From Bacteroidales bacterium (GTDB lineage Bacteria > Bacteroidota > Bacteroidia > Bacteroidales > UBA932), in the NCBI GenBank assembly GCA_017473705.1, contig JAFUJQ010000008.1:1-42803 (forward strand): DNA of 42,803 nt, in the 5' to 3' direction. This document shows, in pieces, positions 9,782 through 38,664 of this stretch (positions are counted from its first letter, which is position 1; every line of letters starts with the position of its first letter). The notes under the pieces were generated by a model that saw nothing but the letters and a program-made list of their open reading frames with translations, was not told where the DNA came from and searched no databases. A program made the translations under genes and the position numbers.

Positions 9782-10971
9782 TCTTCCTGGCTGCGGCGAC
9801 ATATTCCTGCAGCCCTTCCGGCCAGGACGATGAGATCAGATGCATCGTACACTTTGAAGACAACGGATATGTGACGAAGGCGTTGAACCCTGACGAGCAG
9901 AAGATCACAGACATCAGCCTGATGGTTTTTGACGAGGCAGGAGATGCAGAGGAGTGCATCTGGATTCCGAATGCGGGAAGATCAGCCGAGCTGACCCTCG
10001 TCAAGGGCAAGTCATATGATTTCAGAGCATGTGCAAACTTCGGCTATCAGGTATATGCAGACCACATCTCCGAACTGGACGAGACAACTTTCCACATGGC
10101 ATATCCTGATGAGTATCAAGAGGGTATGCCGATGTACGCATCTGCTGACGATATCACCATCGGGACAGACGGAACCGTACATCTGACCTTTGAGAGGCTC
10201 ATGGCCAAGATTACGCTCAGAATGGACAGAAGCCGTCTCTCCGACGGCGTGGAGGTGTATGTCAGGAGCGCCAGGATATGCAACTGTCCCAAAGTGACGA
10301 CGGTCTTCGTCCCTAACAAAGTAACCGGCAGCGACAGATGCCACAGTGTCGGTTTCTATCGCAACGATCTGGAGACATCCGTTCTCAACACATCAGGCAG
10401 AGACGGCAAAAGCGGAGAGATTTCTTTATATATGATGGAGAACATGCAGGGAGAAGAGAGACCTGATCCTAACGCTTGTTCCTATATAGAAATGGAACTC
10501 GACTATATGTCAGACACGAAATATTCCGTAGAACCGCTTAAATACAGGTTTTATCTTGGCGACGGCATGGGAAATCATGATGTAGAAAGGAATACACACT
10601 ACAAGATCCTGGTCTGCCCTGAAGACGACGGACTGTCGGATGACGGCTGGAGAGTGGACAAGGAAGGACTGAGGGACAATGTCCCTGTTACATTCGCCAG
10701 CTATCCGTCAAGCTATATCAGAGGCGACATTGGGGATAAGATCCACATATGGTGCGAATTCACACCTGAAGACACACCCTTTGATATCGGCGAGGAGTAT
10801 ATGAAGGATGACAAGGCGAACGGCATATATGACTATGAGATAGATCCTGACGGCCACGGAGCGACGCTGACGCTGACCGGACCGGGCCGAGGATTGATCT
10901 GCATGTCAGCCGGTAAGCCTGTGGATGAGAGCGCATTATATATCATAGAGGTCAATCTGGCAGGAGATTGA
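9745..10971 (+). CDS. DUF4906-like fimbrial tip/accessory lipoprotein
   Basis: A 408-residue lipoprotein: signal LLIFLAAATYSC with the lipobox Cys at residue 22. The middle has the fimbrillin-type HLTFERLMAKITLRMD strand. Residues about 270-315 read YRFYLGDGMGNHDVERNTHY then DGLSDDGWRVD, the pattern I associate with DUF4906 proteins that cap Bacteroidales fimbriae. A C-terminal Ig-like region follows. A strong ribosome site (GGAGG, then TAGGGA) lies inside the previous gene, so the two are co-translated. Its last 12 codons form the left arm and loop of a long palindrome that also contains the TGA stop. Confidence 0.75.
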   Translation: MERKGRIRGGLLIFLAAATYSCSPSGQDDEIRCIVHFEDNGYVTKALNPDEQKITDISLMVFDEAGDAEECIWIPNAGRSAELTLVKGKSYDFRACANFGYQVYADHISELDETTFHMAYPDEYQEGMPMYASADDITIGTDGTVHLTFERLMAKITLRMDRSRLSDGVEVYVRSARICNCPKVTTVFVPNKVTGSDRCHSVGFYRNDLETSVLNTSGRDGKSGEISLYMMENMQGEERPDPNACSYIEMELDYMSDTKYSVEPLKYRFYLGDGMGNHDVERNTHYKILVCPEDDGLSDDGWRVDKEGLRDNVPVTFASYPSSYIRGDIGDKIHIWCEFTPEDTPFDIGEEYMKDDKANGIYDYEIDPDGHGATLTLTGPGRGLICMSAGKPVDESALYIIEVNLAGD

Positions 10972-10988
10972 CCTCTATGATATATAAT
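10935..10988 (+). terminator. 22-bp perfect palindrome spanning the stop codon of the fimbrial operon
   Basis: The left arm 10935-10956 and right arm 10967-10988 are perfectly complementary over 22 bp with a 10-nt loop (CTGGCAGGAG). The left arm encodes the protein's C-terminal residues, and the TGA stop (10969-10971) lies in the right arm. It is a strong hairpin without a long T run and probably ends transcription between converging genes. Confidence 0.8.
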
Positions 10989-21232: not shown

Positions 21233-21427
21233 ATACTATAATAATTTTGGCTTGGTTTCGTCGGAACGAGTTCCGACTTCATCCCTCCCACCGCTTTGCG
21301 GCGGGCCCCAACCGGCGGGCTAAAGCCCTACTGCTCAGGCACGAATGTCCACCGGACATTCTCTAACGGCCATCGCGACCATTCACGAGGCCACGGGCGG
21401 CCACACCAGCCAAAATTATCATAGTAT
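21233..21427. repeat. Structured dispersed repeat, copy 2 (with flanking inverted repeat)
   Basis: A 195-bp element between ppdK and djlA. The ends 21233-21252 and 21408-21427 are complementary at 19 of 20 positions. Interior hairpins: GTCGGAA/TTCCGAC, CCCACCGC-TTT-GCGGCGGG (21287-21305), GGGCT-AA-AGCCC, GAATGTCC-ACC-GGACATTC (21343-21361), and GGCC-ACGGGC-GGCC. The central 84 bp (21307-21390) is identical to copy 1 except for one base. The rest of the 322-bp gap holds the ppdK terminator and an AT-rich djlA leader. Confidence 0.88.
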
Positions 21428-33404: not shown

Positions 33405-33986
33405 ATGTTTTTAGAAAGTACAAAAAAAGCGGGATCAATCGAAGTTATCTGCGGTTCAATGTTTTCTGGAAAGACAGAAGAGCTGATCCGTAGAATGAAA
33501 AGGGCTCAGTTTGCAAAACTTAAGGTCGAGATATACAAACCATGCATCGATGTGCGCTACTCAGAGGACGAGGTGGTCTCACACGACGCCCACAGCATTC
33601 CCTCAACTCCGATCGACTCACCGGCAAGCATGCTTCTGCTTTCAAACGACGTGCAGGTAGTGGGAATCGACGAGGCACAGTTCTTCGATGATTCCATCGT
33701 GGAAGTTGTCCAGACTTTGGCCAACAGAGGTGTGAGAGTGATCATCGCCGGTCTTGACACTGACTTCATGGGAAAGCCATTCGGTCCGATGCCGGCCCTC
33801 ATGGCTGTTGCCGAAGACATCCAGAAGGTGCATGCAATATGCGTGAAGTGCGGAAGTCCTGCCAATCATTCACATAGACTTTCTAAAAGTGAAGAGCTGG
33901 TAGTCCTCGGAGAGACAGACATCTACGAACCTCTTTGCAGACATTGTTACAATGAAGCCATACAAGCAGAAAAGGAAGCGAAATAA
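33405..33986 (+). CDS. tdk: Thymidine kinase (type II)
   Basis: Phosphorylates thymidine to dTMP in nucleotide salvage. The 193 residues carry the P-loop [10 protein letters not shown] (17-26), [10 protein letters not shown] with the DEAQ motif, the [12 protein letters not shown] lasso region, and zinc ligands in CVKCGSPAN and CRHC. The last six codons plus the region after the stop form a perfect palindrome with the TAA exactly in the loop. Confidence 0.97.
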
Positions 33987-34005
33987 TTTCGCTTCCTTTT
34001 CTGCT
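33965..34005 (+). terminator. 19-bp perfect palindrome with the tdk stop codon as its loop
   Basis: Arms 33965-33983 and 33987-34005 are perfectly complementary over 19 bp; the three-base loop 33984-33986 is the TAA stop itself. A TTTATAT tail follows. It ends tdk and the convergent RHH-like gene. Confidence 0.85.
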
Positions 34006-34011
34006 TTATAT

Positions 34012-36334: not shown

Positions 36335-37414
36335 ATGAGTATGACTAAAAAAATAAGAGTTGCCATTGCCGGTGGTACGGGTTATACTGGCGGGGAGCTG
36401 TTCCGCATTCTGCTGAATCATCCTCATGTGGAGATTGTGGCGGCGACTACGACTTCCTCGGAAGGCACCCCTGTTGCTTCCGTGCACAGGGATCTGATCG
36501 GAGAGACTGACCTTTGCTTCGGCACGGAACTCAATGATCCAGATGTGATATTCCTATGTCTGGGGCATGGCATTTCAAGGCAGTTTGTGGACAGTCATGA
36601 AATCAGCCCGGACTGCAGGATCATAGACCTGGGCAATGACTTCAGGCTTGACGGAGATTATGCCGGAAGGCATTTCGTTTATGGTCTCTGCGAAAGCGCC
36701 CGCGAAGAGATCCGCAAGGCTCACGACGTGGCAAACCCCGGATGCTTCGCTTCTGCAATCCAGTTGGCTGTGCTGCCACTGGCCGCTGCCGGGCTCATAA
36801 ATGATGAGATTCATGTCACTGCCATCACGGGATCCACTGGAGCAGGCAAGAAGCCTGGAGAAACCACCCATTTCAGTTACAGGAGCGACAACATATCCAT
36901 ATACAAGCTGTTCTCGCACCAGCATCTGGCGGAGATCAGACAGAATCTGGGGCGCATATCAGAGAAGGCTGCAGCCTCCACTGCCCCCCTCCCGGCAAGC
37001 TGGGCCCCTCACCATACGCGGGGGTGCGAAAATGCCGGTTCCGTCTATCAGCCTTCTCCGAATATAAAAATCAACTTTGTGCCGATGAGGGGTGATTTTG
37101 CGAGGGGTATTTTTGCCAGCGTTTATACCAAGGCAGTGGAAGGGATGACATTGGAGGATTACAGAAAGCTTTATGAAGACTATTACGCTGAATCACCGTT
37201 TGTATTCCATAGCAATGAAGGCATCTCTCTGAAAGAGGTTGTGAACACAAACAAATGCCTGTTGCATGTGGAGCTTCACGACGGTTATGTACACATCGCC
37301 TCGGTGATAGACAACCTGGTCAAAGGAGCTGCAGGCCAGGCAGTACAGAACATGAACCTGCTCTTCGGGCTCCCGGAAGACACGGGACTGCACCTGAAGC
37401 CATCAGCATTTTAA
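36335..37414 (+). CDS. argC: N-acetyl/N-succinyl-gamma-glutamyl-phosphate reductase, with an in-frame insertion
   Basis: Reduces N-acyl-glutamyl phosphate to the semialdehyde with NADPH. The nucleotide loop AGGTGYTGGELFRILL begins at residue 12, the active cysteine is Cys137 in NPGCFASA, and GSTGAGKKPGETTHFS and FVPMRGDFARGIF are family motifs. At 359 residues it is long for the Bacteroidetes type, which I recall as about 320. The extra part is residues about 210-241 (AAASTAPLPASW, then HHTRGCENAGSVYQ). That DNA is bounded by a 10-bp inverted repeat and contains the CCCTCCC...GGGCCCC core of the dispersed repeats in this window. The frame is kept, so the enzyme is probably active. Confidence 0.95.
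   Translation: MSMTKKIRVAIAGGTGYTGGELFRILLNHPHVEIVAATTTSSEGTPVASVHRDLIGETDLCFGTELNDPDVIFLCLGHGISRQFVDSHEISPDCRIIDLGNDFRLDGDYAGRHFVYGLCESAREEIRKAHDVANPGCFASAIQLAVLPLAAAGLINDEIHVTAITGSTGAGKKPGETTHFSYRSDNISIYKLFSHQHLAEIRQNLGRISEKAAASTAPLPASWAPHHTRGCENAGSVYQPSPNIKINFVPMRGDFARGIFASVYTKAVEGMTLEDYRKLYEDYYAESPFVFHSNEGISLKEVVNTNKCLLHVELHDGYVHIASVIDNLVKGAAGQAVQNMNLLFGLPEDTGLHLKPSAF
36962..37058. repeat. Repeat-like palindromic segment inserted in frame inside argC
   Basis: GAGAAGGCTG (36962-36971) and CAGCCTTCTC (37049-37058) are exact inverted repeats. Between them lies a GC-rich stretch with CCCTCCC, 8 nt, GGGCCCCTCACC, resembling the CCCTCCC-N13-GGGCCCC core of copies 2 and 3. It encodes about 30 residues absent from typical ArgC. 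Confidence 0.55.
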
Positions 37415-37416
37415 TA

Positions 37417-37525
37417 TGTTCATGGAGGTGGTTTAAAAACTAAATCCCTCCCACGCCTACGGCGCGGGCCCCTCCCGTTCACAAGGCCACGGGCGGCCAT
37501 GGTTTTTAAACCACCTCCATGAACA
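37417..37525. repeat. Structured dispersed repeat, copy 3 (short form with 24-bp perfect flanking inverted repeat)
   Basis: It lies between argC and argD. Arms 37417-37440 and 37502-37525 are perfectly complementary over 24 bp and do not resemble the flanks of copy 2. The interior keeps the core hairpin CCCACGCC-TAC-GGCGCGGG (37450-37468), then GGCCCC, and the tail GGCCACGGGCGGCCA, but lacks the central 84-bp block and the TTTGGCTTGG end. The left arm contains GGAGGTGG, a ribosome-site-like string that is sequestered if the stem forms. Confidence 0.85.
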
Positions 37526-37539
37526 AAAAAACATTAAGC

Positions 37540-38664
37540 ATGAAATTATTTGAAGTATATCAGTTGTGGGATATCGAGCCCATAAAAGGCTCGGACACAA
37601 CACTTTGGGATAAGAACGGAGAGGTCTATACCGACCTATATGGCGGTCACGCTGTAATCTCAGTGGGGCATTGTCATCCGCATTATGTAAAGATGCTCTC
37701 TGAGCAGCTCGGCAACCTCGGATTCTACTCGAATGCAGTGCAGAATTCGTTGCAGAAGGAGCTTGCCGGACGCCTTGGCAAAGCATGCGGTTATGATGAC
37801 TACGCCCTCTTTCTCTGCAACAGCGGAGCCGAAGCCAATGAAAATGCACTCAAAGTGGCATCATTCCACACCGGCAAGGCCAAAGTCCTTGCATTCCGCA
37901 AGGCATTCCATGGCAGGACATCCGGAGCAGTTGCCGCTACAGACAACCCGAAGATACAGGCTCCGTTCAACTCTACAGAGAACATTGTCTTCTCCCCTCT
38001 CAATGACCTCGAGTCAGCAGAACGCGAACTGTCGGCCGGTGGATTTGCCGCAGTCATCATCGAGGGCATTCAGGGAGTGGCAGGAATATACGAGCCGACA
38101 GGCGAATTCCTCCATGGCCTGCGTTCGCTTTGCGACAAGCATGGATGTCTGCTTATTCTTGACGAAATACAGTCCGGATATGGCAGGACAGGAAGATTCT
38201 TCGCGCATCAGCACCATGGAGTACGCGCAGACATCATCACCACCGCAAAGGGAATGGCCAACGGCTTCCCTATCGGCGGAGTGCTGATCAGCCCTGCAGT
38301 CAAGGCATCATACGGCATGCTCGGCACCACATTTGGAGGCAATCATCTTGCGTGTACGGCAGCGCTTGCAGTACTCGACATAATTGAAAATGAACATCTT
38401 ATAGAAAATGCCGCAAAGATAGGAGAATACTTCAAGGCAACATTCGAAGGAGACAAAGCCGTCAAGGAGTACAGAGGAAAGGGACTGATGATCGGTCTGG
38501 AACTGAACGAAGAATACGTCGGCCTCCGCAACCGTCTTCTTTTCGAGAAGCATTTCTTCACAGGAGCGGCGGGCGCAGGCGTAATCCGCCTCCTCCCATC
38601 ACTCACCATATCTCAGGCAACAGCCGAATCATTCGTCACAGCCTGGAAAGAACTGACATTATGA
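37540..38664 (+). CDS. argD: N-acetyl/N-succinylornithine aminotransferase
   Basis: PLP-dependent transfer of an amino group from glutamate to the N-acylglutamate semialdehyde. From the ATG at 37540 (MKLFEVYQLWDIEPIKG) it has 374 residues; this matches the start usual in Bacteroidetes, whereas the ATG at 37519 lies inside the repeat's right arm. Motifs: LYGGHAVISVGHCHPHYV, FLCNSGAEANENALKVA, ILDEIQSGYGRTG, and the PLP lysine K237 in TTAKGMANGFPIGG. It overlaps argF' by 4 nt. Confidence 0.96.
   Translation: MKLFEVYQLWDIEPIKGSDTTLWDKNGEVYTDLYGGHAVISVGHCHPHYVKMLSEQLGNLGFYSNAVQNSLQKELAGRLGKACGYDDYALFLCNSGAEANENALKVASFHTGKAKVLAFRKAFHGRTSGAVAATDNPKIQAPFNSTENIVFSPLNDLESAERELSAGGFAAVIIEGIQGVAGIYEPTGEFLHGLRSLCDKHGCLLILDEIQSGYGRTGRFFAHQHHGVRADIITTAKGMANGFPIGGVLISPAVKASYGMLGTTFGGNHLACTAALAVLDIIENEHLIENAAKIGEYFKATFEGDKAVKEYRGKGLMIGLELNEEYVGLRNRLLFEKHFFTGAAGAGVIRLLPSLTISQATAESFVTAWKELTL

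Follow-up and report, generated by a model that had tools for sequence, protein, structure and literature searches.

The 42,803-nucleotide stretch of DNA analysed here (the window), from an uncultured Bacteroidales bacterium of the gut or rumen, carries, in the gap between argC and argD, a perfect palindrome that encloses a short repeat. An earlier note on this DNA had proposed that a repeat copy was inserted in the gap and that its insertion duplicated some of the neighbouring DNA in inverted orientation. The locus thus raises the question of where the arms of such a palindrome come from, and whether the core or the whole palindrome is the unit that was inserted.

The palindrome and its core

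The argC gene, encoding an N-acetyl-gamma-glutamyl-phosphate reductase (36335-37414, forward strand; NCBIfam TIGR01850, above its cut-off), is separated by a gap (37415-37539) from argD, which runs on the same strand from 37540 to 38664 when read from the start codon common to relatives (best match NCBIfam TIGR00707, below its cut-off). Palindrome and core both lie within this gap, on the forward strand. As the earlier note had stated, the palindrome is a perfect inverted repeat of 24 bp: the left arm (TGTTCATGGAGGTGGTTTAAAAAC, 37417-37440) and the right arm (37502-37525) are exact reverse complements, placed around a 61-nt core (37441-37501). The left arm begins 2 nt past the argC stop, and the copy lies in the sense direction. 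The outer part of this arm is specific to the copy, and its AAAAC corresponds to the nearly constant end of the element. By estimate, a perfect 24-bp inverted repeat within about 100 nt is expected by chance about 1e-8 times per 42.8 kb.

When the copy was folded as RNA, its stem formed 26 consecutive pairs (minimum free energy -62 kcal/mol; z = -8.1), and none of the 200 shuffled sequences was equally stable. The copy would give a 26-bp hairpin in the mRNA, and an effect on argD, if any, would likely be a side effect; such an influence of the element on argD is possible. The stem had also been said to include an ATG and so perhaps to lower argD translation relative to argC. An ATG does lie in the right arm (37519), and the argD frame can be read from it as an upstream in-frame codon, but the start common to relatives is ATG 37540, beyond the hairpin.

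The core belongs to a type that we call type A, aligned over 56 copies (A1): TAAATCCCTCCCA, a hairpin and GGGCCCCTCCC, followed by a pseudoknotted GGCC hairpin. In the first hairpin (37450-37468), CCC (37450-37452) pairs with GGG (37466-37468), and the inner pairs covary across copies. In the second (37482-37501), GGCC (37485-37488) pairs with GGCC (37495-37498); the A37483-T37500 pair covaries across copies, and A37484 and A37499 are unpaired in the argC-argD copy. The pseudoknot (37474-37493) is formed by CCCGT (37474-37478) with ACGGG (37489-37493), which lies in the loop of the second hairpin.

This fold, with its two hairpins and its pseudoknot (CCCRU with AYGGG), was drawn from one of the aligned sequences and evaluated over the A1 alignment (56 copies, 52 distinct rows). 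Standard pairs were found in 92.3% of cells, and 76 cells showed changes on both sides of a pair, versus a mean of 15.9 in shuffled alignments (none of 500 shuffles was as high) and 0 to 13 when the partner was slid. All cells of the pseudoknot helix (100%) were paired, 12 of them with changes on both sides. Two observations speak against the fold: the alignment had 14 pair types, no more than the shuffles (14.6), and two of the 22 core pairs were mostly unpaired (20 and 10 of the 52 rows paired). Because the motif used to collect the copies fixes some letters, invariant pairs carry no weight here and only the varying pairs count. Overall, the core varies little between copies, with covariation in its hairpins and in its pseudoknot.

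Two further copies, both of a longer subtype, were located on the forward strand of the window: copy 2 (21233-21427), and a third, degraded copy (approximately 1165-1323). The earlier note had matched the argC-argD core to copy 2, and rightly so: exact matches to GGCCACGGGCGGCCA lie at 21389-21403 and 37485-37499, with no further site in the window at up to 3 mismatches, and the CCCTCCC-hairpin-GGGCCCC arrangement is present in copy 2 too. It was also correct that the two copies have unrelated arms, those of copy 2 (21233-21252 and 21408-21427) being 95% complementary to each other. In the genome from which the window comes (2.35 Mb in 171 contigs, 71% complete), core copies were found at argC-argD, at carA-carB, upstream of rbfA, upstream of pyrF, at rnfC-rnfD and at other sites; their arms were mostly different. 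In general, most copies from one and the same genome showed no recognisable common arm sequence. Moreover, the window contains two perfect simple palindromes without a core (10935-10988, 24 bp with a 6-nt loop; 33964-34006, 21 bp with a 1-nt loop), which may be terminators or remains.

Pairing of the arms

A strict-motif search gave 79 copies, of which 23 were removed as redundant and 56 were kept (outer arm at most 60% identical to that of any kept copy). In these, the only conserved element ends were AAAC/GTTT, which are fixed by the copy-finding motif, and a weak fifth base; from position 6, the arms were near random. At arm positions 6-23, the two arms formed Watson-Crick pairs in 71-86% of copies per position, versus 25-41% when right arms were shuffled between copies, while the information content of the same positions was mostly around 0.1 bit, with a maximum of 0.48 bit. 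A weak consensus was perceptible (T at positions 8-9, G at 16-18). Pairing reached background by about position 29; the arms are approximately 22-26 bp long.

With a wider motif, 102 distinct copies (5151 pairs) were compared. Thirty-three pairs agreed at 13 or more of the 20 outer arm bases despite unrelated flanks, versus 1.95 expected from letter-shuffled arms, these counts being inflated by the weak arm consensus; a further 27 arm-sharing pairs had related flanks. More than half of the 33 (18 pairs) belonged to a single cluster, made up of seven copies from three genomes (L059, L088 and L109; L092, L101 and L151; L169). Among the 15 pairs outside the cluster, ten were at the 13-of-20 threshold, and three of the stronger ones joined copies of the same genome (L064/L150, L090/L121 and L003/L004, the last in the window's own genome). 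The 33 pairs comprised 187 arm differences, which are not independent because of the cluster: 121 were at positions paired in both copies, 63 in one and 3 in neither. Beyond the arm end, identity at the sampled positions was 0.21-0.48, and the likeness stopped there. In 16 orthologue-like pairs, 39 arm differences were found, with 17 paired in both copies, 16 in one and 6 in neither.

In the sister species G133, a locus elsewhere than argC-argD (C173) matched the window copy at 94% over 110 bp, including nearly all of both arms. Its left arm differed at 4 of 24 bases (20 identical), all four differences were mirrored in the right arm, and the right arm had one extra difference at its outer end. 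The argC-argD gap of G133 contained 15-bp arms identical to those of the window around a 3-nt loop (TGTTCATGGAGGTGG-ATA-CCACCTCCATGAACA), and the core was absent. Because the G133 argC-argD palindrome is coreless and another G133 locus has related, mirrored arms, the arms seem, from these sequences, to travel with the element and to diverge while still paired. The earlier note had named, as findings against its view, the same arms with other copies and an ancestral palindrome without the core; both were at least partly encountered, the former at the second G133 locus and the latter in its argC-argD gap.

Occupied, empty and remnant sites

Thirty loci were retrieved for argC-argD, and 27 of these were examined, including that of the window; argC could not be placed in 3 of the other 26, which left 23 junctions. 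The gap was at most 17 bp in 12 of these 23 junctions with both gene ends placed, which supports the claim that a repeat copy was inserted; five had other sequence; and six (L173, L176, L180, L184, L187 and L199, identified by reading) had a palindromic element of the same or a related type, with other arms.

Fourteen element sites were compared with possible empty counterparts. In three, the flanks could be aligned nearest to the arms; the rest showed more divergence, had other sequence or gave no pair. When L003 was compared with the empty site L331 (flanks 92 and 94% identical), only TGCAAAGCA remained, and only the outermost TGCA/GCA bases agreed with the arms. Likewise, neither arm was present at the empty sites of L004 (L335) and L282 (L343). 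One comparison differed: where L375 has the element, the corresponding site of G127 (L396) has GAAGTTTCTGAGGGTAATGTCAG, the sequence of the left arm, with neither core nor right arm; a 7-bp repeat, ATGTCAG, recurs after the right arm. On sequence grounds, this looks like a native arm plus an inverted copy, and it was the only such case among the empty-site comparisons. The suggestion that insertion made an inverted copy of local DNA is thus not supported as a rule, with neither arm at the best empty sites, and fits this single case.

Other sites appeared to be remnants or rearrangements. In G127, TCCAAACCGGA-G-TCCGGTTTGGA was present at a site where G131 has the element, and L386 and L391 appear to differ by a deletion between TCCGGT repeats of the arms. 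In related species, the core was inverted between the same arms at the same site (L433 versus L436, with flanks 95.5% and 86.8% identical; L371 versus L300). Target duplications gave no clear signal: matches of at least 5 between inner arm and opposite outer flank were found in 3 of 41 copies versus 2.8 expected, and in 3 of 41 versus 2.85 on the other side, and direct repeats of at least 4 just outside the arms numbered 12 versus 7.0 expected (permutation maximum 13). Overall, the repeat is a mobile element: individual sites occur both with and without it, and the same unit lies at unrelated loci.

The element was also found within genes. In several species, it sits in frame in KsgA between IVDALS and VRDVLEIGPGMG (of 32 loci examined, 4 gave no in-frame match), with the core forward (L450, from the same record as L084, L451, L453, L456 and L463) or reversed (L170, L452, L455, L458 and L470). 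Native forms without the element were present in, for example, L457, L462, L467 and L474; L452 and L457 were 95% identical where the proteins align, and neither arm was present in the native ksgA of L457 and L474. Some KsgA forms appeared to be partly deleted (L454, L459 and L460). A separate, coreless palindrome was seen in three KsgA loci, as GGTCCGATTTCCAAGAC-CGCG-GTCTTGGAAATCGGACC exactly in L461 and as variants in L456 and L453. In L461 and L456, its right half corresponds to the KsgA VLEIGP codons, that is, to an inverted copy of native DNA, which indicates that inverted (fold-back) copying of local DNA occurs in the genus.

Within the window, argC itself contains an in-frame palindromic insert of a related type (type C; approximately 36961-37059, forward strand), with outer arms AGAGAAGGCTG and CAGCCTTCTCC, which adds about 30 residues between QNLGRIS and NIKINFVP. 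Inserts of a related kind were found in the argC of L172, L173 and L205, with apparent remains in L206/L207, and were absent in L202 and most other ArgC proteins examined.

Several further repeats were seen near these sites. Two more subtypes (L332, L360 and L368; L338, L339, L351-L354 and L364), recognised by GACCCCCGCC... and by TTGGCCCCCTCCC... / CAGAGGCCCC..., have their own paired arms and occupy gene junctions where other species have type A. A CGTCATTGCGAGGAGC...GACGTGGCAATCTG repeat, resembling CGTC-tagged REPs, was located near elements or in their place in L203, L232 and L351. Finally, a repeat of about 250 bp that contains GCAGGTGTGC motifs in inverted orientation was found next to several copies in G029, G077 and G091 (L427, L433, L434, L436, L437 and L440). 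The flank common to the copies of these three genomes was considered as a mobiliser gene; it held no convincing open reading frame and reads as another non-coding repeat.

Among 61 genomes searched, matches to the repeat family were found in 28 of 37 genomes of the genus and in none of 24 genomes from other families of the order, the latter sample consisting of one genome per family and including no other genus of the same family. Five close genomes gave 6-16 matches each. The genus rich in the element is probably Cryptobacteroides as named in GTDB. Scanning of public genome contigs with the core pattern gave at least 119 stretches, from metagenome-assembled genomes titled Bacteroidales, Bacteroidia or Bacteroidaceae, many of them from ruminant guts. 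Two other titles were present among the matches listed, Candidatus Cryptobacteroides intestinavium and Candidatus Coprenecus avistercoris (one each), and because of these record titles the family may extend past one genus. No match was found in viral contigs (exact pattern) or in plasmids and phages (blastn of one copy). Rfam covariance models, run on seven loci at E ≤ 5, left the elements unmatched and gave three weak matches elsewhere in the loci, all below gathering scores, and literature searches found no account of this repeat family.

Genomic context was assigned for 94 of the 102 copies, those with enough flank, using open reading frames defined by length only and with orthologues incompletely removed. 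Copies between co-directional frames were in the sense direction in 41 cases and antisense in 17; 13 copies were within a single open frame (12 sense), 13 lay between divergent or convergent frames, and for 10 only one side could be assigned. Most of the 41 sense copies (36) started within 25 nt of the upstream stop.

Origin of the arms and comparison with known repeats

The reading that we favour, and hold to be fairly probable, is that a mobile palindromic element, small and non-coding, inserted between argC and argD, and that such elements move as whole palindromes, their arms being inherited and then drifting while paired. The unit would be the structured core, with its two hairpins and pseudoknot, within a stem of about 22-26 bp. 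Arms would be inherited at transposition and would drift thereafter, and their complementarity may be due to template-switch correction when the DNA is replicated, to selection for folding, or to both. The mobilising enzyme would act in trans; since little of the terminal sequence is conserved apart from AAAC/GTTT, it would have to recognise the folded core and not the sequence of the ends. A more specific and rather doubtful version is that structure defines the ends: the machinery would recognise the pseudoknotted core of a single-stranded molecule (RNA or DNA) and cut at the foot of the stem, which spans about two helical turns and could have any sequence; the ends would then be free to change, with fold-back copying keeping them paired. 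If the intermediate were RNA, the element would be a minimal retro-element at operon stop codons.

Three other origins were weighed against inheritance of the whole palindrome. The arms might be made at insertion, if the folded element joined one flank and its free end copied about 22 nt of it, leaving one native arm and one inverted copy. The unrelated arms of most copies fit this scheme, as do the G127 site with its retained left arm and ATGTCAG repeat, and the L461 and L456 palindromes as instances of inverted copying of local DNA in the genus. However, the empty counterparts of L003, L004 and L282, like native ksgA, had neither arm, there was no general repeat between inner arm and flank, and unrelated loci have arms in common. 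Empty sites and arm sharing together led us to reject local inverted copying as the general source of arms; it is kept as a rival owing to L375/L396, and we regard it as unlikely.

Slightly less likely, in our estimation, is that a core entered the loop of a pre-existing hairpin, the old hairpin providing the arms. The coreless palindrome of G133 at argC-argD could be such a hairpin, as could TCCAAACCGGA-G-TCCGGTTTGGA of G127, where G131 has the element, and there is a precedent in some REP dimers, which lie within longer palindromes (PMC3733652). Against this, no such palindrome was present at empty sites such as L331, L335, L343, L457 and L474 or in the 12 argC-argD gaps of at most 17 bp, what is seen in G127 amounts to a deletion between two TCCGGT arm repeats, and in most copies the arms end near position 28, the same place where the likeness between paralogues ends. 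As a general target, a pre-existing hairpin was rejected in view of the close empty sites, which are without it. The last origin, a regulator built at the locus, in which the hairpin evolved in place and sets the expression of argD relative to argC, would suit a very stable stem between two operon genes and the bias towards the sense direction at upstream stops; it is nevertheless very improbable, given that an identical core type occurs at many unrelated loci in both orientations, that 17 of the 23 junctions of relatives have no element of these types and the other six have other elements with other arms, and that the conserved argD start lies outside the stem.

Mobile palindromes of this kind invite comparison with several known systems. 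Wolbachia palindromic elements are short palindromic repeats found between genes and in frame in housekeeping genes, as are those of Rickettsia (RPE). The latter comprise several subfamilies of short palindromic repeats, both intergenic and in frame in housekeeping genes (PMC10969869). In-frame insertion in conserved protein genes was likewise encountered here, in KsgA (several species, both orientations) and in ArgC (the window's own genome, L172, L173 and L205). The present element differs from RPE, in so far as these are known by partial description (PMC10969869), in belonging to another phylum, and in having outer arms that pair with little common sequence and a covarying pseudoknot. It provides a second bacterial lineage, far from Rickettsia, with palindromic repeats in frame in housekeeping genes such as ksgA.

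With REP/BIME sequences, which are thought to be spread in trans by RAYT (Y1) transposases, the element shares the character of dispersed, extragenic, structured palindromes. However, a REP stem (20-40 bp) is constant within its family and bears a GTAG or CGTC tag, whereas no such tag was present at the ends of the element (A1) and its outer stem mostly held about 0.1 bit. A search for Y1 (HUH) transposases (PF01797, E ≤ 1e-5) gave no match in the window's own genome, where absence is weak evidence because the genome is incomplete (71%), or in the element-bearing genomes G013 and G016 (96 and 98% complete). Of the 37 genomes searched, 22 gave matches: 11 of the 23 genus members (weak, best E 1e-10) and 11 of the 14 other genomes. 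A RAYT/Y1 transposase was rejected as the mover, being absent from some element-bearing genomes, and no other mobilising enzyme was found. MITEs are also small, non-coding and numerous, with inverted-repeat ends; these ends are conserved because the transposase binds them, and target duplications are made, whereas here the sequence of the ends varies, and no target duplication was clearly seen.

Perfect inverted repeats with arms kept identical have been described in conserved genes of nematomorph mitochondria, as coding palindromes for which template switching was proposed; the available part of that description gives no conserved core or mobile unit for them, in contrast to the element studied here (PMC6649704). 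Overall, this element works like the REP, RPE and MITE repeats, yet it fails the tests made for RAYT-linked REPs and MITE-type ends. In small palindromic repeats known so far, the ends are kept because they are read by an enzyme; what is new here is an element with ends conserved in pairing and not in sequence, plus a pseudoknotted core. It offers a testable case for the compensated (template-switch or selected) evolution of bacterial inverted repeats and, with nearly sequence-free paired ends around such a core, for structure-only recognition in transposition.
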